From NCBI GenBank assembly GCA_036376135.1, contig DASVAW010000102.1, forward strand, positions 1-46,906: a DNA stretch of 46,906 nucleotides, read 5' to 3'. This DNA is from Candidatus Polarisedimenticolaceae bacterium. GTDB lineage: Bacteria > Acidobacteriota > Polarisedimenticolia > Polarisedimenticolales > DASRJG01. Shown in pieces: positions 7,121 to 24,435 of this stretch. The position numbers and the translations under genes were made by a program. How positions within the stretch are numbered: position 1 is the first letter of the stretch; each line of letters starts with the position of its first letter. Below the pieces are notes generated by a model, which had not been told where the DNA came from, searched no databases, and was given only the letters and a program-made list of their open reading frames with translations.

Positions 7121-7869
7121 GGCAGCGGCACCGCGCGAAGCCCCGCGCGATCGATCGCGTCGAGCACGCGCGGGAGCGCGTCGAGGACGACGCGATGCCC
7201 GGGGCCGTCGTGCAGGACCAACACGTCCCCGGCACGCAATCCCCGCGTGAGCCGCGCGGCGACCCGCGAGGCGTTGGTGTCGACGGCGTCGAAGCCGCGA
7301 CGCGTCCACGAGGCGAGGGAGATCCCGCGCCGTCGCAGCTGCGGATCGAGCCACGGCGGGCGAAGCCCGGCGGGTGCCCGGAACCAACGCGGCGCGCGCC
7401 CCGCGAGCGCCCCGATCTCGCGCTGCGCGCGATCGATCTCGCGCCCGACGGCTCCGGGAGGGAGCACCGAGAAGGCGTGCGAGTGGCTCCACGTGTGGTT
7501 CTCGACGCGATGCCCCCGCCGCACGATCGCGCGCACGACCTCCGGGTGCGCGACCGCGCGCGCGCCGACGAGGAAGAACGAGGCGCGCGCGCCGCGCGCT
7601 TCGAGCAGGTCGAGCACGCGCGGGGTCACGTCGGGGTCGGGACCGTCGTCGAACGAGACCGCGACCTCGCCCCGCGCCGCCGCGTCGGGCCCGAGCCGCA
7701 CGAGGTTGTCGCCGAGAAGGCGGCTGCGCGGCCAGAGCGCCGCGCCGTAGATCGCGGCGTGGTCGGCGACGCAGGCCGCGACGACCCACGGCCAGCTCGA
7801 CGGCGCGAGCGCGACCGTCGCGAGCCCCGCCGCGTGCAGCGCCGCGGACGCCTTCAGCAGCGCGGTCAC
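7117..7869 (-). CDS. Membrane-anchored polysaccharide deacetylase (NodB domain, CE4)
   Basis: A 250-aa protein with about 45 N-terminal hydrophobic residues (one or two membrane segments) followed by a NodB homology domain. The CE4 motifs are intact. Motif 1 is FDDGPD at residues 73-78, with the general-base and metal-binding aspartates. Motif 2 is HTWSH at 125-129, giving the two metal-binding histidines. Motif 3 is in RAPAG and a C-terminal LVLHDG matches motif 5. The enzyme should remove N- or O-acyl groups from a sugar, on the periplasmic side if the N-terminus is an anchor. The GTG start overlaps the stop of the AMP ligase gene, and the downstream methyltransferase overlaps in the same way. 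A deacetylase is not a core aryl polyene enzyme; it may act on the sugar added by the cluster's GT2 enzyme. Confidence 0.88.
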   Translation of the reverse strand: MTALLKASAALHAAGLATVALAPSSWPWVVAACVADHAAIYGAALWPRSRLLGDNLVRLGPDAAARGEVAVSFDDGPDPDVTPRVLDLLEARGARASFFLVGARAVAHPEVVRAIVRRGHRVENHTWSHSHAFSVLPPGAVGREIDRAQREIGALAGRAPRWFRAPAGLRPPWLDPQLRRRGISLASWTRRGFDAVDTNASRVAARLTRGLRAGDVLVLHDGPGHRVVLDALPRVLDAIDRAGLRAVPLP

Positions 7870-9170: not shown

Positions 9171-9233
9171 CGTCGCAAATCCGCGTGTTATATTGCGTCT
9201 CTCTCGCCGAACGGCGCGGAACCGCAATCTAAC
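9171..9233. promoter_or_regulatory. Divergent promoter region between AMP ligase and acyl carrier protein
   Basis: This 63-bp AT-richer gap separates two divergent arms of the biosynthetic locus and must hold promoters for both. The clearest element is GTTATATT at 9187-9194. Read rightward it gives a TATATT -10 candidate; read leftward it gives TATAAC. I see no convincing -35 box for either direction, so the assignment is positional. A short GCCG/CGGC hairpin at about 9206-9215 sits in the leader of the carrier protein gene. Confidence 0.4.
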
Positions 9234-9521
9234 ATGAGCCACGGCCCCGAACTTCGACTCCGGATCAAGGAACTCATCGTCGAGAGCCTCCGCTTCGACG
9301 GGATGGACCCCGCCTCGATCGAGGACGACGCGCCGCTCATGGGCGAAGGACTCGGCCTCGATTCGGTCGACGCGCTCGAGTTGATGGTCGCCCTCGAGAA
9401 GGAGTTCGGCGTCAAGCTCGAGAACGCCGAGGTCGGCCGCGCGGTCCTGAAGTCGGTCTCCACCCTCGCGGCCTTCATCGCCGAGCGTCGAGCGGCCGTG
9501 GGGAAGCCGGGTGAGGCCTGA
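9234..9521 (+). CDS. Acyl carrier protein
   Basis: A 95-aa four-helix carrier protein. The phosphopantetheine attachment site is S44 in the context GLGLDSVDALELM, which matches the DSxD/E signature of acyl and polyketide carrier proteins. Acidic helix II/III residues (ALEKEFGVKLEN) are typical of dedicated type II systems. It is the first gene of the rightward arm and overlaps the following ketosynthase by 11 bases. It should carry the growing chain for the ketosynthase pair and dehydratase of this locus. No phosphopantetheinyl transferase is visible in the window, so activation probably relies on a genomic enzyme elsewhere. Aryl polyene clusters usually have two carrier proteins; only one is present here. 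Confidence 0.92.
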   Translation: MSHGPELRLRIKELIVESLRFDGMDPASIEDDAPLMGEGLGLDSVDALELMVALEKEFGVKLENAEVGRAVLKSVSTLAAFIAERRAAVGKPGEA

Positions 9522-10734
9522 GTCGACGGTCGTCGTCACCGGACTGGGCGCGGTAACCGCCCTCGGGGGATCGGCCGGCTCCACCTGGCGCGGCCTCCGG
9601 GCGGGACGCACCGCCATCGCCCCGTTCTCCCGCTTCGACGCCGCGCCGTTCCGGACGCACCTCGCCGGAGAGGCCGATGTCCCCGCAGGGGAATCGGACC
9701 TCCGTGCGGAGCGACTGACACTCGCGGATCGCTTCGCGCTCGCCGCGACGCGCGAGGCGCTCGAACAGTCCGGCCTCGACCTTCACGCGGCGCGGGCGAC
9801 CCTCGGCGTCTTCTTCGGAAGCTCGACGGGCGGGATGTGGGAAACCGAGGTCTTTTTCGAGCGCGCCCTCGCCTCGGAGATGCGCCGGCTGCGCGCCGAT
9901 CTTCTCGCGCAGCAGCAGTACAACGCCCCGGGCGACGCGGTCGCGCGGCGGTTCGGGGCCGAGGGCCCGGTCGAAACGGTCTCGGCCGCGTGCGCGTCGG
10001 GATCGATGGCGCTCGGGATGGCGCTCCACGCCCTCAGGCGCGGCGACTGCGACGTCGCGATCGCCGGCGCCGCGGACTCCCTCTGCCGCATCACCTACGG
10101 CGGATTCAACGCGCTGCGTTCGGTGGACCCCGAGCCCTGCGCGCCGTTCCGCGCGCGGCGACAGGGGCTTTCGATCGGCGAGGGCGCGGGCGTGGTCGTG
10201 CTCGAGCGACGCGAGGCGGCGTTGTCCCGAGGTGCCTTGCCCCTCGCGGAGCTGTGCGGCGCGGCGTGGTCCTGCGACGCGCACCACATGACCGCGCCTG
10301 CGCCGGACGGGTCCGGCGCGGCGCGCGCCCTGCGCTCGGCCCTCGCGGATGCGGGGGTCGGCGCCGAGGCGCTCGACTTCGTCAACGCCCACGGAACGGG
10401 GACCCCCCTCAACGACGCCGCCGAGGCACGCGCGATCCGCGAGGTGCTGGGCGACCGCGTCCTCCTCGTGCCCGTCGTGTCGACGAAGTCGATGGTGGGG
10501 CACCTCCTCGGCGCGGCCGGCGCCGTCGAGGCGGTGGTGACGATCCTCTGTCTCGCCGAGCGCGAGGTCCATCCGATGCCCTCCGCCGGCGCGATCGACG
10601 CCGAGATCGGGCTCGAGCTGGTGATCGGGACGCCGCGTGCGCTGCCGCACGCGCGCTTCGCGGCTTCGCTGAACCTCGCCTTCGGCGGCGCGAACGCCGC
10701 ACTCGTGCTCGCCCGCGCCGACGCGAGGGGCTGA
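9511..10734 (+). CDS. Beta-ketoacyl-ACP synthase (FabF/ApeO-like), catalytically complete
   Basis: A 407-aa thiolase-fold ketosynthase starting at GTG inside the end of the carrier protein gene. All catalytic elements are present: nucleophile C161 in SAACASGS, H294 in HGTGTP, the lysine in STKSMVGH, and H331 in GHLLGAAG. It therefore should perform decarboxylative Claisen condensation of malonyl-ACP onto the acyl primer. The next gene is a related protein that lacks the triad, so the two probably form a KS/chain-length-factor heterodimer, as in aromatic type II polyketide and aryl polyene systems. Housekeeping FabF is the alternative identity, but the neighbourhood (GT2, MMPL, LPLAT, ligase) argues for a specialised lipid. 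Confidence 0.93.
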   Translation: MRPESTVVVTGLGAVTALGGSAGSTWRGLRAGRTAIAPFSRFDAAPFRTHLAGEADVPAGESDLRAERLTLADRFALAATREALEQSGLDLHAARATLGVFFGSSTGGMWETEVFFERALASEMRRLRADLLAQQQYNAPGDAVARRFGAEGPVETVSAACASGSMALGMALHALRRGDCDVAIAGAADSLCRITYGGFNALRSVDPEPCAPFRARRQGLSIGEGAGVVVLERREAALSRGALPLAELCGAAWSCDAHHMTAPAPDGSGAARALRSALADAGVGAEALDFVNAHGTGTPLNDAAEARAIREVLGDRVLLVPVVSTKSMVGHLLGAAGAVEAVVTILCLAEREVHPMPSAGAIDAEIGLELVIGTPRALPHARFAASLNLAFGGANAALVLARADARG

Positions 10735-10736
10735 CG

Positions 10737-11930
10737 GTGGCATCGGTCGTCACGGGAATCGGCCATGTCGGCGCCTCGGGGCTCGGGCTCGACGCGATCC
10801 GGCGCGCCCTCACGGAAGGCACGCCGCGCCCGGCGGTGGTCGACGCCTCCGCCGGCTGGCACGTTCCCGGGTCCGCGCGCACCGCGCTCCTCTGCGCGGA
10901 GGCGAACCTGACCCCGTGGGTGTCCCCGGCCGCGGCGCGGCGGATGAGCCGCCCCTCCCGCCTCGCCGTCGCCGCCGCGCGGATGGCCCTCGAGTCGGCG
11001 ACCGCCGGGTGCGAGCCGGACGGCGTCGTGTTGGCGACCGCCTTCGGCCCGGCGGCGTTCACCGAGAAGCTGCTCCGCGAGATCCTCGCCGATCCCGAGA
11101 CCGCCTCGCCGTTCCTGTTCACCGAATGCGTCGCGAACGCCCCGACCGCCGAGGTCGCGATCGCCCTCGCGGCCCGTGGGACGAACTGGACGATCACGCA
11201 GCGCGAAGCCGGCCCGTTGCTCGCCCTCGCCCGCGCGGCATCGGAGATCGACGAAGGCCGGGCGAGGGCGGTCGTCGCCGGCGCGGTCGAGGAGATGACG
11301 CCGATGCTGCACGGCGTTCTCGACCGGTTCCGTGCCCTCGCGAGGCCCACCCCGGACGGCGAGGCCGCACGTCCCTTCGACGCCCGCCGGAACGGGTTCC
11401 TCGTCGCCGAAGGCGCGACGATGTTCCTGGTGGAGGACGAACACGACGCCACCCGCCGCGGCGCGCGGCCGCTCGCCCGCGTGATCGCGAGCGGCGCCGC
11501 CTTCGATCCGACGGCCACGCCGGGAACGTGGGGAAGGAACGGAGCCGGGCTCGGGCGCGCGATGCGACGCTCGCTCGAGCGAGCGGGGATCGACCGGACG
11601 ACGATCGGCGCCGTCGTCTCGGGTGCGTCGGGAGCGGTGGACGGGGATCGCGCGGAAGCGGAGGCGCTGGGCGCGATGTTCGAGGGGACGGCCGTTCCCC
11701 CGGTCCTCGCCCCCAAGGCGGTCGTGGGAGAGTTCGCGGGAGCGTATCTCGCGGCGCCGTTCCTCGCCGTCGAACCGTCGACCTTCCCGGCCACCCCGGG
11801 TTTCCGTACCCCGGATCCGGCCCTGGGCGTCGTCCCGTGGCAGGGGGGCCCGATCTCCGCCTCGCGCGTCCTCGTCACCGGGCTGGCGTCGGGGGGCGCC
11901 GCCGCCTGGGTCGTCCTGGAGCGTCCGTGA
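10737..11930 (+). CDS. Degenerate ketosynthase / chain-length-factor-like protein
   Basis: A 397-aa protein with the thiolase fold but no ketosynthase triad. Aligning its NAPTAEVAIAL stretch with NAPGDAVARRF of the preceding enzyme places E157 (in TQREAG) at the nucleophilic cysteine. The HGTGTP histidine is replaced within SGASGAV, and the GHLLGAAG histidine is replaced by glutamate in VVGEFAGA. The protein starts two bases after the upstream stop and ends in a GTGA overlap with the GT2 gene, so the two ketosynthase-type proteins should be made together. By analogy with type II PKS and aryl polyene KS/CLF pairs, it likely shapes the chain-length pocket or stabilises the active partner. A glutamate rather than the usual CLF glutamine at the cysteine position is unusual. 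Confidence 0.83.
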   Translation: MASVVTGIGHVGASGLGLDAIRRALTEGTPRPAVVDASAGWHVPGSARTALLCAEANLTPWVSPAAARRMSRPSRLAVAAARMALESATAGCEPDGVVLATAFGPAAFTEKLLREILADPETASPFLFTECVANAPTAEVAIALAARGTNWTITQREAGPLLALARAASEIDEGRARAVVAGAVEEMTPMLHGVLDRFRALARPTPDGEAARPFDARRNGFLVAEGATMFLVEDEHDATRRGARPLARVIASGAAFDPTATPGTWGRNGAGLGRAMRRSLERAGIDRTTIGAVVSGASGAVDGDRAEAEALGAMFEGTAVPPVLAPKAVVGEFAGAYLAAPFLAVEPSTFPATPGFRTPDPALGVVPWQGGPISASRVLVTGLASGGAAAWVVLERP

Positions 11931-12628
11931 TCGCGCGGGTCGCCGCGGCGATCCCGGCGTACCAGGCTGCGGCCACGGTCGCCGCCGTCGTGACCGGTAC
12001 GCGGCCGCTCGTGGCCGAGCTCATCGTGGTGGACGACGGTTCGACCGACGGCACGGGGAATGCCGCCCGCGCCGCCGGGGCCGAGGTGCTCGTGCACGCG
12101 AGCAACCTCGGCAAGGGGCGGGCGCTGCGGACGGCGTTCGACGCGCTCTTCGCGCGGGGCGCCGACGCCGTCGTGACCCTCGACGCGGACGGGCAACATC
12201 GCCCCGACCAGATCCCCAGACTGATCGACGGCGCCTCGGGGGGAGCCGACCTCGTGCTCGGGACGCGCGACCACGTCTTCTCCGCCATGTCCCCGGTGCG
12301 GCGGGCGAGCAATCGGGTTTCGTCGTTCGTGATCTCGGCGGTCGCCGGCGTGCAGCTGCGCGACATCCAGACGGGCTTCCGCCTCTACACCCGCAGGCTC
12401 GTCGACGCGTGCGGCTTTCCCGAGCCGCGTTTCGAGGCGGAGAGCGCGGTGATCATCCGCGCGGCGCGACGGGGCCTCCGGATCGAGATCGTTCCCGTGA
12501 GGATGGACCTCGTCGACGGCCGCGCGACGAGCCACTACCGCCCGCTCGTGGACAGCCTGCGCATCGCGTTCGCCGTCGCGAAAGCCCGGCTCGAGCCTGC
12601 GGCGGAGCACCCGCGGGAGCGTCCCTGA
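11927..12628 (+). CDS. Family 2 glycosyltransferase (DPM1-like)
   Basis: A 233-aa GT-A glycosyltransferase with no membrane segments. The nucleotide-binding DDGSTDG lies at about 36-42 and the metal-binding DAD triad at 86-88 in LDADGQHRPDQI. The later segment DIQTGFRLY is typical of the dolichol-phosphate mannose synthase-like GT2 branch. The length suits single-domain GT2 enzymes of aryl polyene clusters. It starts at a GTG overlapping the TGA of the chain-length-factor-like gene, with GGAGCG just upstream as ribosome-binding site. It probably transfers a sugar to the lipid product or its anchor; the deacetylase in the leftward arm could then act on that sugar. The donor is unknown. Confidence 0.88.
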   Translation: MIARVAAAIPAYQAAATVAAVVTGTRPLVAELIVVDDGSTDGTGNAARAAGAEVLVHASNLGKGRALRTAFDALFARGADAVVTLDADGQHRPDQIPRLIDGASGGADLVLGTRDHVFSAMSPVRRASNRVSSFVISAVAGVQLRDIQTGFRLYTRRLVDACGFPEPRFEAESAVIIRAARRGLRIEIVPVRMDLVDGRATSHYRPLVDSLRIAFAVAKARLEPAAEHPRERP

Positions 12629-12666
12629 GCCGCGCGGCGCGGGGTCTCGCGACCCGGGTCGCGACG

Positions 12667-15600
12667 GTGCTCACCGGTCGCGCGGGAGCGATCCTGCTCG
12701 CGGCGGGCGCGGTGACGGCGCTCGCGCTCCTCCCCGCGTCGAGGCTCACGCTCGAGTCCGATCTCCCCTCGCTGCTTCCCGAAGGGTCACGGGCCGCCGA
12801 CGACTACCGGGTGTTCCTCGACTCCTTCGGCGGGCTCGAGAAGGTCTTCGTCCTCCTCGAAGCGCCGGAGGGCGCCGCCCCCGAGGCCCTCGGCGAGGCG
12901 GCGTTCGCGTTGGCCGACCGCCTCTCGGCCTGCCCTGAGGTGCGGTCGGCCCGGGCGGGGCTCGGCGACGACGACGAGCGTTTCTTCCTCGACTCGATCG
13001 CGCCGAATGCGCCGCTGCTGGAACCCGCCGGCCGCGTCGCGGCCGCTCTCGCCCCGGGAGCGGTCGAAGCGCGCATCGACGCCTTGCGCCTGGCTCTGGC
13101 GTCCCCCGGCGGCTCGGCGACGGCCTCGTTGGCCGCCGCCGATCCGCTCGGCCTCGCCGCCGAGCGCCTCGGTCGCGAAGGTGCCGGCTCCAGCCTTCCG
13201 GTCGATCCGACGACCGGAGCGTTCCTGTCCGGGGACGGCCGCGCGGCGCTGGTGATCGTGACTCCCGCGCGCGCCGAGACGGACGCCGCGGGGGGGCGCG
13301 CGTTGCGGGTCGCGCTCGACGCCGCCTGGGACGACGTCCGCGGCGCGCTCCCGGCACACGTCACGATGCGCGCGACCGGCGGTCCGCTCTACGCCGCGCA
13401 CGACGAGGAGGCGATCCGGAGGGATCTCGTGCGCGTGTCGGGAGGGGCCGTCCTGGGCGTGGGACTGCTCATCGTCCTCGTCTGCGGCGGGATCGCGATC
13501 CCGCTCGCCGCCGCGGCCGCGGTGGGGTGCGGCCTCGCGTGGACCGCCGCGGCGGCCGGTTTCGGCCTCGGCTCGGTGACCGCGGTCGGGGTCGGCTTCG
13601 GGGCGATCCTGATCGGGATGGGGGACGACTACGTCAACCATCTCGGCGCGGACTACCGGGACCGGGTGCTTCGCGGAACCTCCCGGTTGCGCGCGACGGC
13701 GGGGGCCCTTCGCCGCGCCGCGCCGGGGACGATCGCCTCGGCGCTGACGACGTCGGCGGCGTTCGGGGTCCTCTCGCTCGCGCATTTCCGGCCCCTGCGG
13801 GAGCTCGGCATCGTCGTGGCGATCGGGATGCTGCTGATGCTCGCCTCGGCGTACCTCGTCGCCGCGCCGGTGCTCGTGCTGACGCTGTCGCGTGCTCCGC
13901 GGAAGGCTTCCCTGCTCGGCCGGCTCTCCGGCGCCGGCTGGCGCGCGCTCGGCGCCGCGGTCGACGCGACGGTGGGGCTCGCGCGACGGCATCCGCGCGG
14001 GACGCTCGTCACCGCCATGGTCGCGACGCTCGTCGCGGCCCCGGGGCTTGCGCGCCTCTCCCTGGATACCGACCCCCGGCGACTGCGACCCGACGACCAT
14101 CCCGGAGTGGAGGCCGCCGGTCGTCTCGCACGCCTGTTCGGCGTCGGCATGGAGACGACCACGGTAGTGGTGCGCGCGCCGGACCTCGTCACGGCCCTCG
14201 ACCGCGCCGAAGCGGTCGCCGCGCGCCTTCGCCGCGAGGTCGGCGACCGGGGGGAGGTCCGCTCTCCCTCGGACTGGCTCGTTGCGGGGGAGCGCCTCGA
14301 GGCGCGGCGCCGCGCCCTCGCCCCGTTCGATCCCGCCGGAGCGGCCGACCGCCTCGGCGCGTCGCTCGACCGCGCCGGGTTCAGCGTGGCGCCGTTCGCA
14401 GGGACGATCGCCGCCCTCCGGGTCCTCGGCGGCGCGCCCGCCGAACCGCTGCCGCCTCGCGAACGCTGGCCCGACTGGCTGCGCGACGCCGTGCGTGAGG
14501 ACGCCTCGGGAGCCGCCGTGGCGGTGCACGTCCGCCACGCCGCGACCCTTCCGGGATGGGAGCACGGTCCTCCCGAACCCCTCGTGCGGGACTTGGGAGA
14601 GGCGGCCGTCGCCTCGATCCCGCGGCTGGGTGCGGATCTGCGGCGCGTGGCCATGTCCGACCTGCGCCGCCTGGGTGGGATCGCCCTCGCGATCGTTGCC
14701 GGAATGATCCTGTTGTCGTTCCGCGGGCGGCCCTTTCCCGCGGTGCTCGCGCTGACCCCGGCGGTGCTCGGCGCGGTGTGGACCTTCGGGGTCTGGGGGT
14801 GGCTCGGCCGGCCGATCGACCTGTTCGCCCTGGCCGTCATCCCGATCCTCCTGGGGCTCGGCGACGATCACGGACTCCACGTCGTGCACCGCGCCCAGAC
14901 GGTCCCTTTCGAAGGGCTCGCCGGGGCGGCGGCCGGAAGCGGGCGTGCGATGGTCCTCAGCACGCTCACGACCTGCGCGGGATTCGCGTCGCTGCTCCTC
15001 TCCGCCGTGCCCGGGTTGCGGGACGGCGGCGCCCTCGTCGCGCTCGGCCTCGCGTGCGGCCTGGCCGCGGCGCTCCTGGTCCTGCCGGCGATCGGCGCGC
15101 TGCGCTCCGAGGGGGCGGAACCGGCACCCCCGCCCCACGCCCCCGAAGGGGGTCGCGCCCGTCGCTGGCTCGGACGGTTCCACGTCACGGGGGTCTTCTG
15201 GTTCCGATTCCACCTGTTCGGCGTCCGCCACTTCTCGTGGGGTGCGCGGGTCGGCGTGCCGGCCTTCACGGTGGTGTTCTTCGTCGCGCTGCGACGGATC
15301 CGGCGAGCGGTGGCGTCGAATCTCGAGGCGGTGCTGGGACCCTGCGGCCCGATCGAGCGCGAGCGCCGGATCTGGCGCACGTTCCTCTCCTTCGCCTGGT
15401 GCCTCACCGAGCGCTACGAGAATCTGGCCGGGGTCGCGAAGATGCGGTTCGAGATCGAGGGGCTCGAGCACTGGACCCCGATGGCGGATTCCCCCGGGGG
15501 GTTCGTGATGCTGACCGCGCACGTCGGCAACTGGGAGAGCGCCTCGATGCTTCCCGCCTCGAGATTCGACCGTCGCGTCCACGTCGTGCGGGAGGAGGAG

Positions 15601-16056
15601 CTCGACCCGCGTGCGCAGGAGTTCGTCCGGGGGCTGCTCACCTCCCGCGGAGCGACCCCGTATCTCACCCATTTCGCGACCCACGACACGTCCCTGGGAC
15701 TGGAGCTCGTGGACGCGTTGCGCGCCGGGGACGTCGTGGCGCTGCAGGGGGACCGCCCACGGCAGGCCGGTCGCTCGATCGAGGGAACGTTGTTCGGAAG
15801 GTCGTTCCGGATCCCCAACGGGGTGCCCGCGCTCGCGCGCGCCGCGGGAGTGCCGCTGCTTCCCGTGTTCGTCCTGCGCGAGGGACGGCGCCGATACCGG
15901 ATCGTCTTCCACGAGCCGATCCGGTTCGCGCCGGGGCTCTCGCGGGCCGACTCGGAGGCGGCGTTCGCCGCCCGGGTCGGCGCGAACCTGGAGGCGGCGA
16001 TCCGGCGCGCCCCCGAGCAGTGGTTCTGTTTCAGGGAGCTGTGGCCGCCGTCATGA
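12667..16056 (+). CDS. MMPL/RND-type exporter fused to an LpxL-like acyltransferase
   Basis: One uninterrupted frame of about 1129 codons encodes two functions. Residues 1-815 are an MMPL-type exporter: an N-terminal membrane helix, a periplasmic loop, a helix bundle at about 260-405, a second half starting near 445, and a second bundle at about 665-812. The paired motifs GMGDDY and GLGDDHG are visible. After a proline-rich linker (EPAPPPHAPEGG), residues 830-1129 form a lysophospholipid/lipid A-type acyltransferase with the HX4E motif HVGNWE near 952 and QGDRP further on. Between the two halves there is no ATG, GTG or TTG in frame until 15256, inside the acyltransferase domain, which supports a true fusion. 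The start is uncertain. GTG 12667 is the first canonical codon, but CTG 12625, overlapping the GT2 stop and preceded by GGGAG, would give a better basic N-terminus. Confidence 0.85.
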   Translation: MLTGRAGAILLAAGAVTALALLPASRLTLESDLPSLLPEGSRAADDYRVFLDSFGGLEKVFVLLEAPEGAAPEALGEAAFALADRLSACPEVRSARAGLGDDDERFFLDSIAPNAPLLEPAGRVAAALAPGAVEARIDALRLALASPGGSATASLAAADPLGLAAERLGREGAGSSLPVDPTTGAFLSGDGRAALVIVTPARAETDAAGGRALRVALDAAWDDVRGALPAHVTMRATGGPLYAAHDEEAIRRDLVRVSGGAVLGVGLLIVLVCGGIAIPLAAAAAVGCGLAWTAAAAGFGLGSVTAVGVGFGAILIGMGDDYVNHLGADYRDRVLRGTSRLRATAGALRRAAPGTIASALTTSAAFGVLSLAHFRPLRELGIVVAIGMLLMLASAYLVAAPVLVLTLSRAPRKASLLGRLSGAGWRALGAAVDATVGLARRHPRGTLVTAMVATLVAAPGLARLSLDTDPRRLRPDDHPGVEAAGRLARLFGVGMETTTVVVRAPDLVTALDRAEAVAARLRREVGDRGEVRSPSDWLVAGERLEARRRALAPFDPAGAADRLGASLDRAGFSVAPFAGTIAALRVLGGAPAEPLPPRERWPDWLRDAVREDASGAAVAVHVRHAATLPGWEHGPPEPLVRDLGEAAVASIPRLGADLRRVAMSDLRRLGGIALAIVAGMILLSFRGRPFPAVLALTPAVLGAVWTFGVWGWLGRPIDLFALAVIPILLGLGDDHGLHVVHRAQTVPFEGLAGAAAGSGRAMVLSTLTTCAGFASLLLSAVPGLRDGGALVALGLACGLAAALLVLPAIGALRSEGAEPAPPPHAPEGGRARRWLGRFHVTGVFWFRFHLFGVRHFSWGARVGVPAFTVVFFVALRRIRRAVASNLEAVLGPCGPIERERRIWRTFLSFAWCLTERYENLAGVAKMRFEIEGLEHWTPMADSPGGFVMLTAHVGNWESASMLPASRFDRRVHVVREEELDPRAQEFVRGLLTSRGATPYLTHFATHDTSLGLELVDALRAGDVVALQGDRPRQAGRSIEGTLFGRSFRIPNGVPALARAAGVPLLPVFVLREGRRRYRIVFHEPIRFAPGLSRADSEAAFAARVGANLEAAIRRAPEQWFCFRELWPPS

Positions 16057-16741
16057 CGCCCAGCCGGGCGCGTGCGAGAAGGCGCCCGCCCGCCTCCAGC
16101 CGTCCCTCGAACAACGCCAGCGGCGGCGCGGACGGCATCGCGCGCGCCTGAACGACGAGAGGCACACCCGCCGGCAGCGCCGACACCTCGAAGACCGCGT
16201 CGGCGACGCTGACGAGCCATCCCCGCACCGGTCCGCCGGAAACCGCCCCCGCCTGCGCCATCGCCTCCAGCGCGAGCACGACGGGGGCGAACCCCTCTTC
16301 GGCGTGGCGGGGATCGATGCGCGCGAGGCAGCGAACGACGTCGCCCCGCTCGAGCAGACGCTCGATCAGGCGCATCGCCCCGCGATGCGGGATCAACGTC
16401 TCGATGTCGGGGGACGGAGCGGGCTCCGGCTCCGGCGCGTCGAAGCCGACCCGGTCGCGCACGGTCCCCACCCGCACGAGCCCGTCGCTCGCGATCGTTC
16501 CGCCCACGCGCACGGCGAAACGACGGCGATCCTCGGAGGTCGCCGCCTCGACCGCGACCTCCGCGGTCTCGCCCGGCAGGATGACGCGGCGGAAACGTGC
16601 GCGCTCGAGGCCGACGAGCGCGAGCCCGGTTTCGCGCAGCAGCCGGTCGACGCCGTCGAGCTGCGCGACCGCCGGGAGGATCGGGGCGCCGGGGAAGTGG
16701 CCGTCGAACCACGGCTCCGAGCCGTCGAAGACGACGCGCAC
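16031..16741 (-). CDS. Two-domain hotdog dehydratase (ApeI-like plus ApeP-like fusion)
   Basis: A 236-aa protein made of two hotdog folds joined by a proline/glutamate linker at about 101-112. Domain 1 (1-100) has the FabZ/ApeI signature GHFPGAPILPAVAQLD, with catalytic H15 but aspartate D29 where FabZ has glutamate. Domain 2 (113-236) begins with ETLIPHRGAMRLIER, like ApeP-type dehydratases, and has the glutamate in LEAMAQ (E159), with H146 as possible histidine. The reaction would be dehydration of 3-hydroxyacyl-ACP to the trans-2-enoyl form, the step that builds a polyene. In aryl polyene clusters these are usually separate proteins. The gene starts at GTG four bases after the UbiE-like stop and its 3' end overlaps the exporter gene convergently by 26 bases. 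Confidence 0.84.
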   Translation of the reverse strand: MRVVFDGSEPWFDGHFPGAPILPAVAQLDGVDRLLRETGLALVGLERARFRRVILPGETAEVAVEAATSEDRRRFAVRVGGTIASDGLVRVGTVRDRVGFDAPEPEPAPSPDIETLIPHRGAMRLIERLLERGDVVRCLARIDPRHAEEGFAPVVLALEAMAQAGAVSGGPVRGWLVSVADAVFEVSALPAGVPLVVQARAMPSAPPLALFEGRLEAGGRLLARARLGVMTAATAP

Positions 16742-16745
16742 GGCG

Positions 16746-17507
16746 TCAGGCCGCCGAGGCCTTGTATTCGCCGAACACGCCGAAGTAGGTCTCGGTCGTC
16801 ACCCCGCGGAATCCGCCGGCTTCCATCGACGCGACGATCGTCTCGGGCGGAACGCACCGATGGACCGTGTCCCAGCAGTAGTGCATCAGGAGATCGGCCT
16901 TGTCGCTGCGCGCGGCGAGGCGCGCCACGAACGGGACCAGTGTCCCGAGGTAGATCCTCACCAGCCGGCGACCCAGGGCGGTCGAGGGCTTGCGGAAGTC
17001 CAGGATGAGGGCGGTCGCCCCCGGCCGGAGCACCCTTCGGTACTCCTCGAAAGTACCCTTCAGGTCGGCGACGTGACGGAGCGCGTACCCCATGCTGAGG
17101 AAATCGAACGAGGCGTCGGCGAAGGGAAGGCGCTCCGCGATCCCCTGCACGAGGGGAATCGGGAGGCGCCGCCGGGTCTGCGCGAGCATCCCGAAACTGG
17201 GGTCGAGGCCGGTCACCGAACCGGTCGGCCCCACCAGGGCCAGCGCGGCGGAGGCGACGGGGCCCGTCCCCACCGCGACGTCGAGGACGTGCATCCCCTC
17301 CCGCACCTGCGCCCGGCGGAGGGCATCCCTCCGGTACCAATCCCCCGAGCCGAACGACATCAGCCGGATGATCCGCTCGTAGTCCGGGGCCGTCTCGTCG
17401 AAGATGTCGCGTACGAAACGGCGCCGGCCCCTTTCGTCCTCGTAATAGGGGTCGAGGCGCGGGTGCGGCGCGACGGCGGCGTTTTCGGCCTCGTCCTTGC
17501 TTTTCAT
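16746..17507 (-). CDS. UbiE/MenG-like SAM-dependent methyltransferase
   Basis: A 253-aa class I methyltransferase with motif I VLDVAVGTG at 74-82 and the UbiE-type stretch GYALRHVADL, followed by VLRPGATALILDFRKP. The N-terminal part FVRDIFDETAPDYERIIRLMSFG also resembles the start of quinone methyltransferases. A role in menaquinone or ubiquinone biosynthesis is therefore possible. However, it is the first gene of a two-gene leftward unit with the fused dehydratase, only four bases apart, which ties it to the polyene-type locus. In that setting it would methylate an aromatic ring or hydroxyl. ATG at 17507 is preceded by a divergent intergenic region. Family assignment is firm; the substrate is open. 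Confidence 0.85.
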   Translation of the reverse strand: MKSKDEAENAAVAPHPRLDPYYEDERGRRRFVRDIFDETAPDYERIIRLMSFGSGDWYRRDALRRAQVREGMHVLDVAVGTGPVASAALALVGPTGSVTGLDPSFGMLAQTRRRLPIPLVQGIAERLPFADASFDFLSMGYALRHVADLKGTFEEYRRVLRPGATALILDFRKPSTALGRRLVRIYLGTLVPFVARLAARSDKADLLMHYCWDTVHRCVPPETIVASMEAGGFRGVTTETYFGVFGEYKASAA

Positions 17508-17609: not shown

Positions 17610-19781
17610 ATGCGCATCGCCCTAGGCTTGGCGACCGTGCTGACGCTGGCCGCGTCGGCGGTCCCCGCGCGGGCCCAGTGCCCCCTCGACACGCAGACCA
17701 CCGACGCCAACGATCGGACCTGTTTCGTCGCCACGACCGGGAGCGACGCCGCGGCGGGAACGCGCGCGGCCCCGCTGCGGACGATCCAGTTCGCCATCGA
17801 CGTCGCCGCGGGGAGCACCGAGTTCCAGACCATCCGGGTGTTCCCGGGCACGTACACGGAGTGCCCCAACGCCTACTTCGGGGTCACGGTGCCGACGAAC
17901 CTCGACATCGTCGCCGACGACTTCATCACGAACGCCTCGCGCGCGACCACCATCCTCGACGGCACGACGATCTGCGGGAAGAACACCGCGACCCCCGCGC
18001 CGGTCGTGACGATCGGGGACCAGACCAAGCTGCGCGGGTTCACGATCAAGGGCGGCGGGGACTCGGGCGTCTTCGGCCGGGGCCACGTGCAGATCACCAA
18101 CAACGTGATCACCGGCAACAGCACGCCGCTCGAGGGCGGCGGCATCGCCGTCTACACGGGAAGCGCGATCGAGGATGCCGACTTCGATGCCGTCATCGCC
18201 TCGAATCGCATCGAGGCAAATGAGGCCGGGAGCGCGGGCGGAGGCGTGTACGTCTACGCGCTCTCCGACGAGACGCTCGCGAGCGACGTGACGATCCAGT
18301 CGAACGAGATCCTCTCGAACGTGGTGCGCAACGGCACCGACCTCGACGCGATCTACGGCGGCGGGCTCGCCGTCTTCACCGACACGATCGAGCCCACCGA
18401 GGTGTCGCGGGCGGTGATCACCGCGAACGTCATCGACGGGAACTCCGCGCAGGCGGGAACGACCGGCCTCACGACGTATGGAGGAGGGGTCCTCATCCAG
18501 AGCTTCGGGGCCGGGACCGAGACGATCGACCTGGGCGGCAGCACGACGGCGCTCGGAAACTCCATCCGCAACAACACCGTCGAGGACGGTTACGGCGGCG
18601 GAGTCGCGGTGCGCGGCCAGGCCTGGCCCGGCGCGACCCACCGGCTGCGGGTGCTGACCAACGCGGTCTCCGCCAACACGTCGGATCTCGGAGGCGGGGG
18701 GATGTTCCTCCTCGCGCTGACGCTGGACGTGAACTCGGCGACGACCCTGCAGGTGCTCGCGCGCGCGAACAGCGTCTCCGGAAACGAGGCGACCGCTCCG
18801 ATCGCGCCGGCGCCCGTGAATCCCGCCGGAGGCGGCGGGATCTACGCGGATTATTACAACGAGCGCAGCGTCGCCTCGGCGGCCACCCTCGAGATCCTCG
18901 GGAACACCCTTCGGAGCAACCTGTCCGACTCGTACGGCGCCGGCGCGGCCCTGTACTCCCGCGCGTACAACTCCTCGCTCCTGGACACCGATCTCGCCCC
19001 CGCCACCTCGACGATCACGTTCAAGAACAACCTCGTCGTGCTCAACGACGCCAAGGGTCCCGTCCCCGGCGGGGTGCGCGAGGGAGGAGGGGTCTACGCG
19101 GTCGGGGTCGGTTCGGGGCTGACGGGAACCGCAAACCTCGACCTTCACCTGAACACGTTCGGCCGCAACCTCGTGGACGCGGGTGGCGGCGGCGGGCTCT
19201 CGCTCGAGGGAATCACCACCCCCGACACGAACGGGGCGATCGGTTCGGTGAACCTCGAGGTCGAGAACTCGATCTTCCTCCTGAACGACGCCTACGGGAT
19301 CGGCGGACCCGCGGTGCCGGGGTTCACGAACGTCGCCGCCTCGATCCGCTACAACGACTTCTTCGGCAACGCCCAGGCCCCGATCTCGCCGAACCTCGAA
19401 ACTTCGGCGACGAACTCGCTCACCGTGGATCCCGAGCTGGACGTGAACTACCTCGCCCCGTTCTGCTCTCCCACGATCGACGCCGGCGACCCGTCGTCGG
19501 GGACGTTCGTGGACGGGAAGCTGCAGGAGGAGGCGCAGCCCAACGCGCGGCGCGCCAACCTCGGTCACACCGGGCTGACCTCCTCGGCGACGGTCACCCT
19601 CCCCGACGTCGACGGGAGCGGTCGCGTCGACGGGGTGGACGTGCTCGAGCTGGCGTTCCGGTTCGCCTCGAGCTCCAGCCAGGCGCGCTACCACGCGAGC
19701 TCGGACCGGGACGGAGACGGGGACGTGGACGGCGAGGACCTTTCCTATGTCGCGGCCTACTTCGGCCGCACCTGCCCGTAG
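17610..19781 (+). CDS. Secreted right-handed beta-helix protein with C-terminal dockerin
   Basis: A 723-aa exported protein (signal peptide ending ARA). After the signal comes a DUF1565-like start (VATTGSD, then PLRTIQFAID and VFPGTYTE). A long parallel beta-helix follows, with repeated units such as NNVITGNS and GGGVYVY over about residues 90-640. The last 60 residues hold two dockerin-type calcium loops. The first is DVDGSGRVDGVD, with ligands at positions 1, 3, 5, 9 and 12; the second is DRDGDGDVDGED. Each is followed by a helix (VLELAFRF, LSYVAAYFG), which matches type I dockerins. The next gene, 14 bases downstream, is a cohesin-like lipoprotein. The helix may bind or cleave polysaccharide, but no catalytic residues are recognisable. 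AGGAGG precedes the ATG. Confidence 0.9.
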   Translation: MRIALGLATVLTLAASAVPARAQCPLDTQTTDANDRTCFVATTGSDAAAGTRAAPLRTIQFAIDVAAGSTEFQTIRVFPGTYTECPNAYFGVTVPTNLDIVADDFITNASRATTILDGTTICGKNTATPAPVVTIGDQTKLRGFTIKGGGDSGVFGRGHVQITNNVITGNSTPLEGGGIAVYTGSAIEDADFDAVIASNRIEANEAGSAGGGVYVYALSDETLASDVTIQSNEILSNVVRNGTDLDAIYGGGLAVFTDTIEPTEVSRAVITANVIDGNSAQAGTTGLTTYGGGVLIQSFGAGTETIDLGGSTTALGNSIRNNTVEDGYGGGVAVRGQAWPGATHRLRVLTNAVSANTSDLGGGGMFLLALTLDVNSATTLQVLARANSVSGNEATAPIAPAPVNPAGGGGIYADYYNERSVASAATLEILGNTLRSNLSDSYGAGAALYSRAYNSSLLDTDLAPATSTITFKNNLVVLNDAKGPVPGGVREGGGVYAVGVGSGLTGTANLDLHLNTFGRNLVDAGGGGGLSLEGITTPDTNGAIGSVNLEVENSIFLLNDAYGIGGPAVPGFTNVAASIRYNDFFGNAQAPISPNLETSATNSLTVDPELDVNYLAPFCSPTIDAGDPSSGTFVDGKLQEEAQPNARRANLGHTGLTSSATVTLPDVDGSGRVDGVDVLELAFRFASSSSQARYHASSDRDGDGDVDGEDLSYVAAYFGRTCP

Positions 19782-19795
19782 ACGAGAGGGACGGC

Positions 19796-20389
19796 ATGAA
19801 CCGCAGATCGATCCTCCGGAGCTTCGCCTACGCGGCGTTCTTCGCGTGCGTCCTCACCACCTCGTTCGCCTGCGGCGGAGGAGGGGGCGACGACACGCCG
19901 TCGGGCATCCTCACCGCGACGTTCACCCCGGACAATCCGAACCCCGGCGCGAACACCGTCTCGATGCAGGCGGGAAGCAGCTCGGCGACCGACTTCAACA
20001 TCGACGTCTCGGTCACGCAGACCAACGACGTTTTCGGGGCGGCCTTCGACGTCACCTTCCCCAGCGCGAGCGTCTCCTACCAGTCGTTCGACATGACCGG
20101 CTCCCTGCTGAACGGCGCGGGGGTGACGGTCTCCACCACCGTCGATCCGTTCGCACCCGGGCGGCTGATCGTCGCCGTCACCCGCGTGCAGAACGTGGGC
20201 GGGACCGTTCCGAGCGTCGACGTGGGGGCGACCGCCAAGCTGATCACGCTGCGCTTCCGGGCGCGGACGGCTTTCCTGCCGACGGCGATCTCCTTCGACG
20301 CGACGCAGCCGCGGCAGGTCCGCAACGAGTTGAACCAGTCGATCCCGGTGACGTGGTCGTCCGGGTCGGCCGCCGCGGCCATCAACTGA
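19796..20389 (+). CDS. Cohesin-like domain lipoprotein
   Basis: A 197-aa exported protein with a basic N-terminus, hydrophobic core and a cysteine at SFACGGGGG, which looks like a lipoprotein signal, although the residues before the cysteine are not a classical LAGC box. After a low-complexity glycine/aspartate spacer the remaining 160 residues look like a cohesin beta-sandwich: an opening strand (FNIDVSVTQ), FGAAFDVTFPSASVSY, a G-rich turn after SLLNGAG, a strand with RLIVAVTR, and a closing strand TAKLITLRFRA. Cohesins bind dockerins, and the gene directly upstream encodes a dockerin protein. This suggests that it is a surface receptor for that protein. Recognition is by fold pattern and context, so a related carbohydrate-binding or BACON-like sandwich remains possible. 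Confidence 0.72.
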   Translation: MNRRSILRSFAYAAFFACVLTTSFACGGGGGDDTPSGILTATFTPDNPNPGANTVSMQAGSSSATDFNIDVSVTQTNDVFGAAFDVTFPSASVSYQSFDMTGSLLNGAGVTVSTTVDPFAPGRLIVAVTRVQNVGGTVPSVDVGATAKLITLRFRARTAFLPTAISFDATQPRQVRNELNQSIPVTWSSGSAAAAIN

Positions 20390-20395
20390 CCCGTC

Positions 20396-20432
20396 GTTCC
20401 CGGGCCCGGAGGATCACTTCGGGCCCGGGAAC
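20396..20432. terminator. Convergent hairpin between cohesin lipoprotein and S9 peptidase genes
   Basis: A perfect 13-bp inverted repeat (GTTCCCGGGCCCG at 20396-20408, CGGGCCCGGGAAC at 20420-20432) with an 11-base loop lies between the two converging genes. The stop codon of the S9 gene (20414-20416) sits in the loop, so the right arm is also coding sequence. No T-run follows on either strand, so it would be an incomplete intrinsic terminator, or a transcript-end stabiliser used with Rho. Confidence 0.55.
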
Positions 20433-22999
20433 AGCTCCTCCCAGCCTTCGGGCTGTCCCTTCAGCCAGCGGTCGAACCAGGCGACGATCCCCCTCGACCA
20501 GACGACGCGTTTTCCGTGGTCGAGGATCCAGTGGTCCTGGCCGTCGACCGTCAGGAGCTCGACCGGGGCCCCCGCGAGCTTGAGCGCCGTATAGAACGAC
20601 TCGCTCTCGCCGACGGGCACGTTGGTGTCCGCCGAGCCGTGCGTGAGCAGGATCGGCGTCTTCACCTTGTCCGCGCGGTAGAGCGGGCTGCGATCGACGA
20701 AGAGCTCCTTGTTGTTCCACGGGAACGACCCGGCCGCGCTGACCGCGCCGTACCAGTATCCCCAGTATCCCTCCCCCCAATACGTCGCGATCGAGGAGAT
20801 CCCCGCGTGGGAGACGGCGGCGGCGTAGAGGTCCGATTTCGTGACGAGCAGCATCGTCATGAACCCGCCGTACGACGCCCCGATGCACCCGACGCGCTTC
20901 GCGTCGACCGCCGGGTGCGCCTCGAGGAACCGGCGCGTCCCCTCGAGGATCTCCTCGGAGGTCGCCGCCCCCCAGTCGTTGACGTGAGCGGCCGAGAAGG
21001 CCTGCCCGTAGCCGACCGCCCCCGAGGGCTGCGGCACGTACACGACGTACCCCTGCGAGGCCCACCACTCCTTCGGGTACCGCCCGCCCCACTCGCGCGA
21101 CACGGGGGTCACGCCGCCGTAGAAGTTCACGATCGCGGGATACGACCCCTTGCGGCTCGCGTCGTAGCCCGGCGGGAAGTAGACCCGGCCGTCGATCGTG
21201 CGTCCGTTCGCCGCCTTGAAGACGAACGGCGCGACCGTCCCCTTGCGGGTCGAGGCGAGCGCCTCGACCGCGGGGGCCGCGAGGACGCGCGCCGGCCCGC
21301 CGGCCAGATCGACCGCGACCACGCGCTCGGGTTCCCACGGCGACGAGCCGGCGATCACGGCGACCGGGGCGTGGGTGGCGAACGCGACGTTCTCGGTCAC
21401 GTCCACGCCGGCGTCGAGCTTCGTGAACCGCTTCGAGGCGGGCTCCCAGCGCCACAACCCCTCGAAGTCCTTCTCCGCGGCCTCGAAGTAGATGTTCCCG
21501 TCCGCGACGTTCCACTGGACCGCGAGCACCGACGGGTCGAACCCCTTCGTGATCGGCTCGGCCGATCCGCTCACGGGGTCCCACACGTAGAGGTCGCCTT
21601 CGGCCTCGCTGGGGATCACCCCCGGCTTCACCGCGTGTCCGAGGGAGTCGAACTCCGACGGGCCGCCGCGCACGAGGATGCGGCGGCCGTCCGACGACCA
21701 GGCGACGGCGTCGGTGCCCCAGCCGTCCCGGAGCTTGCGGGAGGCGAGGGTCGCGAGGTCGACCTCCCACAGCTCGTTGCGCGAATACGGACGCCGCTCG
21801 AGGTCCTCGACGTTGCGGAGGAACAGCAGGCGGGCGCCGTCGGGGGAGATCGACGCGGCCGACGAGGTCAACGAGCCCGCGGTGAGGCGCCGCCGCATGC
21901 CGGTGGCGACGTCGAGGACGTGCAGCACCTGTTTGTCCCGCCAGCCGGCCTGCCGGTCCTGCAGGTTGATCCGCAGCTTGACGCCGCGCTTGTCGGGCTC
22001 GGCCTTCGCGGTCGTCGCGTAGACGACGCGGGACGCGTCGGGCGCCCACAGGTACCCCGCGAACGCCTCGACCCGCTCGAGCAGGGGCGACGTCGCCCCG
22101 GAGTCGAGGTCGGCGACCCACAACGTCGACAGCCGCTTGTCCCCCTGGGTCTCGGAGGTCACGTAGCTCAGGCGCGTTCCCTTCGGCACCCAGGCGACCT
22201 GCGACACCGGGAGACCGCGCCACGAGCGCTCGACCGCGCCGTTCCTCACGGAGCGCACCTCGAGCCACGACTCGGCGTCGTCGGTCCCCGGAAGCACGCG
22301 TTTCCAGGTGATCGCCACGCGCGCGCCGTCGGGCGAGACCGCAAGCCCCTCCGCATTGGGCACGTCGAGGACGTCCAGGATCTCGAGGGTTCTCTCGGGA
22401 TCGACGCCCGGGACCACCGCCTCGGCGCCCTTGAGGACCGCACCGACGCTCCACTCCCCGGCGCGCCCGGGGTCGTAGACGGTCTGGACGAGGAGCACGT
22501 GCGTGCCGGTGGGCAGGCGCAGCTTCCCCTTCGCCTCCGACTCGGGCCCCTCGGTTGCCGTCCCGCCGGTGGCGACCGGCTCTCCGTCGAGCCACGCACG
22601 GCGGGGGTGGCGTCCGACGAGCTCGAGGTCGGCGGCGACGAAACGTCCGGTCGTGAGATGCACCGAAAGCCAGGCGATCGCGGGAGTCTTCGGGTCGGGC
22701 GGGGTCAGGACGACCGCCCCTCCCTGCCCGGCGTCGGACCGTTTCCATCCCAGCGCGTCGCCCGCCGCGGGGCGCGGGAACCCCCGCGGGAGGACCTCCT
22801 GCGCGAGCATCTCGGCGACGCCGAACTTCCCGCCCGGCTCGTCGGCGAAGGCGGGGAACGGCGCCCGGCGCGGCTCGAGCAGGAGCCAGGCGGGCACCGG
22901 CTTCGCGGGGACGTCGCTCACGGGCGCGTCCGCCGCGACGGCGGGAACGGCGTGGGCCGCGAACACCGCGGCGAGCAGCCACGACGAGGCTCGGCGCAT
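20414..22999 (-). CDS. Secreted S9 family (prolyl oligopeptidase-type) serine peptidase
   Basis: An 861-aa exported protein with a clear signal peptide ending AVAA. The N-terminal two thirds is a TolB/DPP-like beta-propeller, with repeated WxSDGxRI-type and SPDGARV strands. The C-terminal third is an alpha/beta hydrolase. The nucleophile is in GASYGGF (Ser near 707), the acid in HGSADTNVP (near 790) and the histidine in GQDHWI (near 823), giving the S9 order Ser-Asp-His. It most resembles acylaminoacyl/dipeptidyl peptidases of S9B/S9C. It should release di- or oligopeptides in the periplasm. AAGGA sits upstream of the ATG. It is divergent from the phospholipase D-like gene and convergent with the cohesin gene. 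Confidence 0.92.
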   Translation of the reverse strand: MRRASSWLLAAVFAAHAVPAVAADAPVSDVPAKPVPAWLLLEPRRAPFPAFADEPGGKFGVAEMLAQEVLPRGFPRPAAGDALGWKRSDAGQGGAVVLTPPDPKTPAIAWLSVHLTTGRFVAADLELVGRHPRRAWLDGEPVATGGTATEGPESEAKGKLRLPTGTHVLLVQTVYDPGRAGEWSVGAVLKGAEAVVPGVDPERTLEILDVLDVPNAEGLAVSPDGARVAITWKRVLPGTDDAESWLEVRSVRNGAVERSWRGLPVSQVAWVPKGTRLSYVTSETQGDKRLSTLWVADLDSGATSPLLERVEAFAGYLWAPDASRVVYATTAKAEPDKRGVKLRINLQDRQAGWRDKQVLHVLDVATGMRRRLTAGSLTSSAASISPDGARLLFLRNVEDLERRPYSRNELWEVDLATLASRKLRDGWGTDAVAWSSDGRRILVRGGPSEFDSLGHAVKPGVIPSEAEGDLYVWDPVSGSAEPITKGFDPSVLAVQWNVADGNIYFEAAEKDFEGLWRWEPASKRFTKLDAGVDVTENVAFATHAPVAVIAGSSPWEPERVVAVDLAGGPARVLAAPAVEALASTRKGTVAPFVFKAANGRTIDGRVYFPPGYDASRKGSYPAIVNFYGGVTPVSREWGGRYPKEWWASQGYVVYVPQPSGAVGYGQAFSAAHVNDWGAATSEEILEGTRRFLEAHPAVDAKRVGCIGASYGGFMTMLLVTKSDLYAAAVSHAGISSIATYWGEGYWGYWYGAVSAAGSFPWNNKELFVDRSPLYRADKVKTPILLTHGSADTNVPVGESESFYTALKLAGAPVELLTVDGQDHWILDHGKRVVWSRGIVAWFDRWLKGQPEGWEELFPGPK

Positions 23000-23061
23000 G
23001 GGAGTTCCTTTCGGGAATGGCCTACGAGCATGGGGACCGTGAAGATACCATCCGCGGGCCC

Positions 23062-24435
23062 ATGAAGCGGACCGCGATCGCAGCCTCACTGGCGGGGGTT
23101 CTCGCGCTGGCGAGGCCGGCGTCCGCGGACCGTTTCCGGCTGCTCGACGACCCCCAGGAAGCCGCCCGGGTCCGCGTCCGGATGATCCACGAGGCGCGGG
23201 CGTCGATCGACGCCATGTACTTCATCGTCGGCGACGACTCGGTATCGCTCGCGGTGCTCACGCTGCTTCGCGACGCCGCGCGGCGGGGCGTCGCGGTGCG
23301 CCTCGTCGTCGACGGCCACTTCAACCGGATCCCGAAGGAAGTGCAGGCCCAGCTCATCGACGAGGGGGTCCAGATCCGCGAGTACCACCCCTTCCGGCTC
23401 TACAAACCCCGCTGGTGGTCGCGTCGCCTGCACGACAAGTTGCTCGTCACCGACGGCGCGCGGCTCGTCACGGGCGGCCGGAACATCGAATCGCCGTATT
23501 ACGGCCGGGGCGAGGAGGTCGGCCGCCGCGACTACCTCGACCGCGACGCGTGGGTCGAGGGGGGCTCCGCGGCGAACGCGAGCGCCTATTTCGATGCGCT
23601 CTGGAACGGGCCGAAGGTCCGCAAGGCCAACCTCGCGCAATTCAAGCGCTCGAGGCTCGAAAAGCGCTGCGAGCTCCTCCCGGCGGAAGCCGACCGCGAC
23701 CGTTGCGAGCGGCTCCGGACGGAGGCGCTCGCCGATCTCCACGCCGCGGACCGCCTCCTCGACGACCATCGCGACCGCCTCGAGCGGAACCCCTGGTTCA
23801 CCTCCGATCGCCCGGTCGGCGAGGGGAGCGCGGAGGTCGGTCCCGTGCGGTTCGTGCACGACCCCGCCGCGGGGAAAAGCCCCGGGGACGGCATCGGCGC
23901 GGCGCTCCTCGAGCTTCTCGATCGAGCGGAGACCTCGGTCGTCATCGAGTCGCCGTACCTCGTCCCGTCGAAGGCCCTCCGGGAGGGGCTGAAGCGTGCC
24001 GTCGCCCGCGGCGTTCGGGTGCGCATCCTCACGAACTCCCTGGCCGTGACCGACAATCTGCTCGCCCAGGCGGGGTACGTGGGAGACAAGGACAACGTGG
24101 TCCGCTGGGGGATCGAGTTGTGGGAATACGCCGGACCCGAGTGCCTCCACTCGAAGTCGGCGGTCTTCGACGGGCGCTGGGTCGTGGTGGGCTCGTTCAA
24201 CCTCGACCCCCGTTCGGAGTTCCTCAACACCGAGACCGCGGTGATCGTCGACGACCCCGACGCGGCGAACGTCGCGAGCCTCGCCATGGACGCCCACCTG
24301 GCTCGCGCGTACCGCATCGACCCCCGGGGGAAACCCGTCCCCGGCCCCGTCGAACCCGAGGAGGTCGGCTGCGGCAAGCGCATGCAGCTCGGATTGCTTC
24401 GCCTGCTCGCGCCGTTCATCCGGAAGCAGATCTGA
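23062..24435 (+). CDS. Exported phospholipase D-like protein with two HKD motifs
   Basis: A 457-aa protein with a signal peptide (cut near ASA-D). Two phospholipase D half-domains are visible. The first has LHDKLLVTDGARLVTGGRN with H124, and the second has CLHSKSAVFDGRWVVVGSFN with its histidine near 363. Both HKD motifs keep histidine, lysine and aspartate, and are followed by the GG/GS residues of the family. The length and the signal peptide resemble cardiolipin-synthase-like or YmdC/ClsC-type proteins, although no membrane helices beyond the signal are seen. Activity may be phosphatidyl transfer or hydrolysis in the periplasm. The substrate cannot be told. It has its own 62-bp divergent region with the S9 gene. 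Confidence 0.88.
   Translation: MKRTAIAASLAGVLALARPASADRFRLLDDPQEAARVRVRMIHEARASIDAMYFIVGDDSVSLAVLTLLRDAARRGVAVRLVVDGHFNRIPKEVQAQLIDEGVQIREYHPFRLYKPRWWSRRLHDKLLVTDGARLVTGGRNIESPYYGRGEEVGRRDYLDRDAWVEGGSAANASAYFDALWNGPKVRKANLAQFKRSRLEKRCELLPAEADRDRCERLRTEALADLHAADRLLDDHRDRLERNPWFTSDRPVGEGSAEVGPVRFVHDPAAGKSPGDGIGAALLELLDRAETSVVIESPYLVPSKALREGLKRAVARGVRVRILTNSLAVTDNLLAQAGYVGDKDNVVRWGIELWEYAGPECLHSKSAVFDGRWVVVGSFNLDPRSEFLNTETAVIVDDPDAANVASLAMDAHLARAYRIDPRGKPVPGPVEPEEVGCGKRMQLGLLRLLAPFIRKQI

Follow-up and report, generated by a model that had tools for sequence, protein, structure and literature searches.

A dockerin-bearing beta-helix protein and a single-cohesin lipoprotein encoded by adjacent genes in Acidobacteriota

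Cohesin-dockerin pairs outside the cellulosome

In Archaeoglobus fulgidus the products of ORF2375, which carries a dockerin at residues 432–506, and ORF2376, which carries a cohesin at residues 29–162, are reported to bind each other strongly and specifically (PMC9705933). This system is the closest precedent of a gene pair found in the window, a stretch of 46,906 nucleotides from the genome of a Candidatus Polarisedimenticolaceae bacterium (4.38 Mb in 179 contigs). In both cases consecutive ORFs in a non-cellulosomal setting encode one protein with a C-terminal dockerin and another with a cohesin near its N-terminus, and the window pair likewise consists of adjacent genes for a dockerin protein and a single-cohesin protein. 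The A. fulgidus cohesin (2xdh) matches the predicted structure of its counterpart in the window with a Z of 13.7 and an rmsd of 2.4 over 125 aligned residues, at 13% identity in the structural alignment. Unlike the host of the window pair, A. fulgidus is an archaeon without an outer membrane.

A second parallel is offered by OlpA and OlpC of Clostridium thermocellum (3ul4 and 4dh2; Z 13.5 and 12.9 against the window model), in which, too, a single-cohesin protein of the envelope directly takes up dockerin proteins. These clostridial proteins are anchored in the Gram-positive wall rather than by a lipid, and they belong to a cellulosome setting, whereas no many-cohesin scaffoldin is seen here. 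The cellulosomal type I and type II systems (2vn5/2vn6, 1ohz, 2b59) have the two domain families and the fold in common with the window pair, but the latter has one cohesin per protein and no carbohydrate-active enzyme, and its dockerin has Gly-Val and Gly-Glu at the contact positions, as against the Ser-Thr of classic type I dockerins. The cohesins found by profile in the host genome are all single, on five contigs, with no multi-cohesin scaffoldin among them and no tandem array in Pfam searches. Neither in the window pair nor among the genome's orphan dockerin proteins is a plant-polymer hydrolase joined to a dockerin, the domains encountered there being instead beta-helix, fn3/TIG, GSDH-like, TSP3 and reprolysin-like. 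Since its genome has neither a multi-cohesin scaffoldin nor a polysaccharide hydrolase among its dockerin proteins, the window pair is not a cellulosome.

The available excerpts of three reports (PMC9012536, PMC10553843, PMC8542988) describe cohesin and dockerin proteins beyond the Firmicutes in ANME archaea, their sulfate-reducing partners and Cloacimonadota, and mention adjacent cohesin and dockerin genes in Hot-Seep1. As far as these excerpts go, the systems resemble the window pair in being non-cellulosomal and in their presumed role of tethering proteins to cell surfaces, but differ from it in including multi-cohesin scaffoldin-like proteins; the same excerpts hold no description of a recurrent unit of two genes in which one product is a lipoprotein with a single cohesin. 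Nor was a description of cohesin-dockerin pairs from Acidobacteriota or Thermoanaerobaculia found in the papers searched, beyond which an earlier mention may exist. The preliminary description of this DNA remarked that, beyond the cellulosome-forming Firmicutes, pairs of this kind have received little study; this fits the literature searched, but needs amending in that the adjacent A. fulgidus pair has already been tested for binding (PMC9705933).

Cohesin-dockerin docking beyond the cellulosome would amount to a general, cargo-independent means of envelope anchoring in a phylum of diderm bacteria for which genetic tools are scarce. The loci also supply well-defined gene pairs, several of them paralogs within one genome, on which the evolution and insulation of dockerin specificity can be studied, and the pairs, if orthogonal, could be useful as binding modules.

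The two genes and their products

Both genes and all of their features described below lie on the forward strand. The first gene (17610..19781) encodes a secreted right-handed beta-helix/DUF1565 protein of 723 residues with a C-terminal dockerin, and the second (19796..20389) a lipoprotein of 197 residues with a single cohesin. Their adjacency, already remarked upon in the preliminary description, is borne out by the ORF coordinates: the stop of the first gene and the ATG of the second are 14 bases apart, and this gap (19782..19795) holds a likely ribosome-binding site, GAGAGGGA. With a divergent methyltransferase gene upstream (16746-17507, reverse strand) and a convergent S9 peptidase gene downstream (20414-23089, reverse strand), the pair constitutes a self-standing two-gene unit. 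Its neighborhood includes lepA, the S9 peptidase gene and purL, at least two of which are also found near the pair in three relatives (L041, L124 and L123); by these common neighbors the locus is old. The region directly upstream of the pair (7117-17507) encodes an AMP-ligase, a beta-ketoacyl synthase, an MMPL exporter accompanied by a lipid A-type acyltransferase, a FabA-like dehydratase and a UbiE-type methyltransferase, and resembles a cluster for a lipid pigment of the aryl-polyene type; a similar ligase is encoded near the pair in L123.

The first protein begins with a Sec signal peptide, MRIALGLATVLTLAASAVPARA (17610..17675), read from the sequence by inspection, about 10 bases upstream of whose start stands an AGGAGG motif. 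The beta-helix region (17736..18620) is covered by the Pfam matches DUF1565 (residues 43–326) and Beta_helix (residues 156–337), and the dockerin (19605..19763; residues 666–718) is recognized both by Pfam Dockerin_1 (PF00404), at 24.5 bits against a gathering cut-off of 22.9, and by a profile of related dockerins built without the window copy, at 87 bits (E 1e-25), where the best of 2000 shuffled sequences reached 12 bits. It contains two calcium loops, DVDGSGRVDGVD (19605-19640) and DRDGDGDVDGED (19704-19739), in each of which residues suited to ligate calcium occupy positions 1, 3, 5, 9 and 12, and the two-loop dockerin that had been proposed is thereby confirmed. The beta-helix type dockerin proteins of the window and of two relatives (L012 and L041) have a common cysteine near the end of the helix, in an F/L-C-S context, and a second one at the extreme C-terminus, past the dockerin (window codons 19461-19463 and 19773-19775); if joined by a disulfide, these two could hold the dockerin firmly to the helix.

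The second protein has a signal peptide and, likewise by inspection, the lipobox SFAC (19862..19873), which ends in the Cys26 expected of a bacterial lipoprotein and is followed by GGGGGDD. The nature of the remainder (19907..20386) was less apparent from direct searches, as the window copy by itself had no match above the cut-off to Pfam Cohesin (PF00963), and a single-sequence search of the PDB was equally empty. The family profile alone gave PDB matches, which were to cohesins (best E 2.5e-7, with cohesin matches down to E 0.02). A paralog on contig C80 of the same genome, related to the window lipoprotein at E 2e-16, scores 43.7 bits against Pfam Cohesin, and of the 19 relatives in the alignment behind those PDB matches (A1), 16 match this model. 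A profile from which the window copy had been left out recovered it at 133 bits (E 1.8e-39), the best of 2000 shuffles reaching 16 bits. The silence of Pfam is thus accounted for by divergence of this copy from the curated model, the homology being visible to the profile.

The predicted structure of the domain, a jelly-roll of 12 strands (pLDDT 95.6, pTM 0.90), agrees with the nine-stranded jelly-roll that characterizes cohesins. In a fold search with the model the best 48 of 50 entries were cohesins at Z 10.5-15.0 (with dozens of cohesins at Z 9-15), headed by CaCohA2 of Clostridium acetobutylicum (6kgc_A; Z 15.0, rmsd 2.7, 139 aligned), and Foldseek returned cohesins as well. The assignment of the body of the lipoprotein as a cohesin, suspected earlier from its letters, is therefore well supported by profile matches, the leave-one-out score and the predicted structure, and the same PDB profile matches and fold search rule out an unrelated beta-sandwich. 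A first scan of contigs for relatives of the lipoprotein returned none; with a profile from a subset of five members it yielded CALMJU010000016.1, from an uncultured Acidobacteria MAG of the same order, which by sequence is the same locus as one already in our set (L014).

Association of dockerins and cohesin lipoproteins across the phylum

The cohesin family is present in all ten genomes examined from the order. In these, a dockerin gene on the same strand ends no more than 400 bases upstream of 24 of the 35 small cohesin genes, where about 0.01 would be expected by chance, while none of the seven secretin-fused cohesins has a dockerin gene beside it. Among 199 genomes sampled from the phylum, 26 encode a small cohesin lipoprotein (at E values no higher than 1e-15) and every one of these has a dockerin, as compared with 13 of the remaining 173 (Fisher 3e-23; 17 of 17 when counted by genus, 2.7e-13); relatedness is ignored in both tests, the first-look candidates were scored in part only, and the dockerin profile, built from linked dockerins, favors such dockerins, so that all these figures serve as guides. 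The Pfam dockerin model, as an independent check, found a dockerin above its cut-off in each of the 20 cohesin-bearing genomes tried. In one family (f51) the cohesin and the dockerin are unlinked, and in each of the eight genomes sampled the searches returned one cohesin and one dockerin. A three-gene version also occurs (L021, L022, L024, L033 and L092), in which the dockerin protein and the cohesin lipoprotein are followed 0.5-1 kb further downstream by a second cohesin protein.

The secretin-fused cohesins raise the alternative that the true partner of the dockerin is the C-terminal cohesin of a type IV pilus or type II secretin, the dockerin acting as a secretion or docking signal. The host genome does encode such a secretin, but across the phylum the secretin cohesins do not track dockerins (Fisher p 0.2), for which reason they were rejected as main partner, and as they also fail to adjoin dockerin genes in the order (0/7), we give this alternative very little credence. 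The secretin gene of this genome (L114 6903-9332; G000:C97:6903-9332, forward strand) stands in an operon with genes for a PilB/GspE-type ATPase, PilM and two pseudopilins, and a literature search on secretins and cohesins returned no relevant title. Many Acidobacteriota have this type, most of them without any dockerin, and the job of its cohesin is thus probably something other than dockerin binding.

The lipoprotein could also be cohesin-folded and yet serve a different purpose, such as a structural one or the binding of carbohydrate, its linkage to the dockerin gene reflecting shared expression only. Cohesins without dockerins exist, as the secretin-fused type attests in 21 genomes of the phylum that lack the lipoprotein, only three of which have a dockerin. 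In contrast to the secretin type, the lipoprotein type did not turn up in any genome that lacks a dockerin, and the dockerin stays while the partners to which it is attached vary, both of which make such a separate job quite improbable.

This variation is considerable: in the 32 dockerin proteins whose genes adjoin one for a cohesin lipoprotein, fn3 domains occur in 14, other cargoes being GDSL lipase, kelch, trypsin-like, M10-like, TSP3 and beta-helix domains. Varied cargo with a constant dockerin is the pattern expected of a general anchoring device, and is less easily explained by one specific job for one cargo. As the arrangement recurs across the phylum with so many different cargoes, cellulosome-style docking probably holds individual proteins on the cell envelope of Acidobacteriota.

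That the two products of a pair are partners, as first supposed from the letters of the window, is further suggested by their co-divergence: over 34 cohesin-dockerin pairs the correlation between distance matrices is 0.64, compared with a maximum of 0.25 in 5000 permutations, though part of this is explained by the co-inheritance of linked genes, which alone produces correlated trees. A related pair of the same class (L017), whose genes lie in one frame, was also modeled by AlphaFold as one chain, giving a pLDDT of 85 and a pTM of 0.73, figures that belong to a chain from a relative with its four intervening stops read as Gly and a tether that favors contact, come with no negative control, and were produced by a predictor that has already seen cohesin-dockerin complexes. 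With the cohesin making up about 53% of this chain and the dockerin about 21%, we estimate that a pTM of about 0.54 would be expected if the dockerin were unplaced and 0.67-0.73 if it were placed; the value obtained is what a docked dockerin would be expected to give, and by this measure the model looks docked. A fold search with it covered the cohesin part only, the partner chains in the PDB being separate. Together with adjacency, co-occurrence and the binding reported for the A. fulgidus pair, which divides the two domains between neighboring ORFs in the same way, these comparisons and predictions point to a partnership of the two products.

Starting from what was computed directly, namely the identity of the dockerin and the cohesin, the lipobox, the conserved layout of two genes and the joint occurrence of the two domains, we consider it likely that the two genes form a small operon encoding a plug-and-socket anchor, in which calcium-dependent binding between dockerin and cohesin holds the beta-helix protein on the envelope. 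The beta-helix protein would be exported by Sec and its C-terminal dockerin would fold around two calcium ions, whereas the product of the second gene would contribute little beyond a lipid anchor, a Gly-rich tether and the one cohesin to which the dockerin presumably binds when calcium is present. So anchored, the beta-helix protein would sit on the envelope, most likely at the outer membrane and probably on its outer face, where it probably binds a polymer or a surface; across the phylum, this device would serve other cargoes as well.

Placement and specificity of the putative anchor

Under the E. coli sorting rule a lipoprotein with Gly, and not Asp, at position +2 of the lipobox goes to the outer membrane. 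The window copy has Gly at this position, the commonest state among its relatives (33 of 48, with Asp in none of the 48), and an outer-membrane placement fits its sequence by this rule. A lipobox alone does not tell which face of that membrane is occupied, and neither protein showed a recognizable signal for export to the surface; the lipoprotein might accordingly face the periplasm and keep the dockerin protein there, without any surface display. We regard such a periplasmic tether as rather unlikely, because beta-helix, kelch, fn3, GDSL lipase and peptidase cargoes are typical of extracellular proteins and because, to our knowledge, the dockerin systems of known location are extracellular, although neither point is decisive.

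The specificity of the proposed anchor may be considered from the full complement of the host genome. A search for other dockerins with the family profile brought the total to five (contigs C102, C80, C2, C117 and C133), two of which have a linked cohesin and three of which do not; dockerin-like Pfam matches on C137 and C99 were set aside, having no match to the family profile. Cohesins are represented by four small lipoproteins (C102, C80, C6 and C63) and the secretin cohesin on C97, so that beside the two linked pairs there are three dockerins and two cohesin lipoproteins without linkage, and cross-binding is possible. These numbers would suit a small network of interchangeable anchors, in which a cohesin lipoprotein can receive several, or even all, of the dockerins in its genome and no pair is private. 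Two observations count against it, and lead us to consider it doubtful: when partners are exchanged between paralogs within a genome, the cohesin-dockerin correlation almost always falls (the observed value is reached in 24 of 9216 swaps), and the two linked pairs of the host genome have dockerins of different subtypes, the first loop being degenerate in the C80 copy while both are good in that of the window. The latter difference hints at private specificity. We tentatively entertain, without being persuaded of it, the stronger proposal that Acidobacteriota possess a modular kit for surface display, in which many unrelated secreted proteins each have a private, orthogonal cohesin lipoprotein and several insulated one-to-one pairs operate in one envelope.

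The dockerin on C80 (G000:C80; L007 1085-1273) represents a second subtype, which keeps the second calcium loop and, given its degenerate first loop, may be limited to one site for calcium and one mode of binding; the cargo of its pairs is often fn3. One of the unlinked dockerin proteins of the genome (L118 2760-4580; G000:C117) combines a reprolysin-like metallopeptidase with TSP3 repeats.
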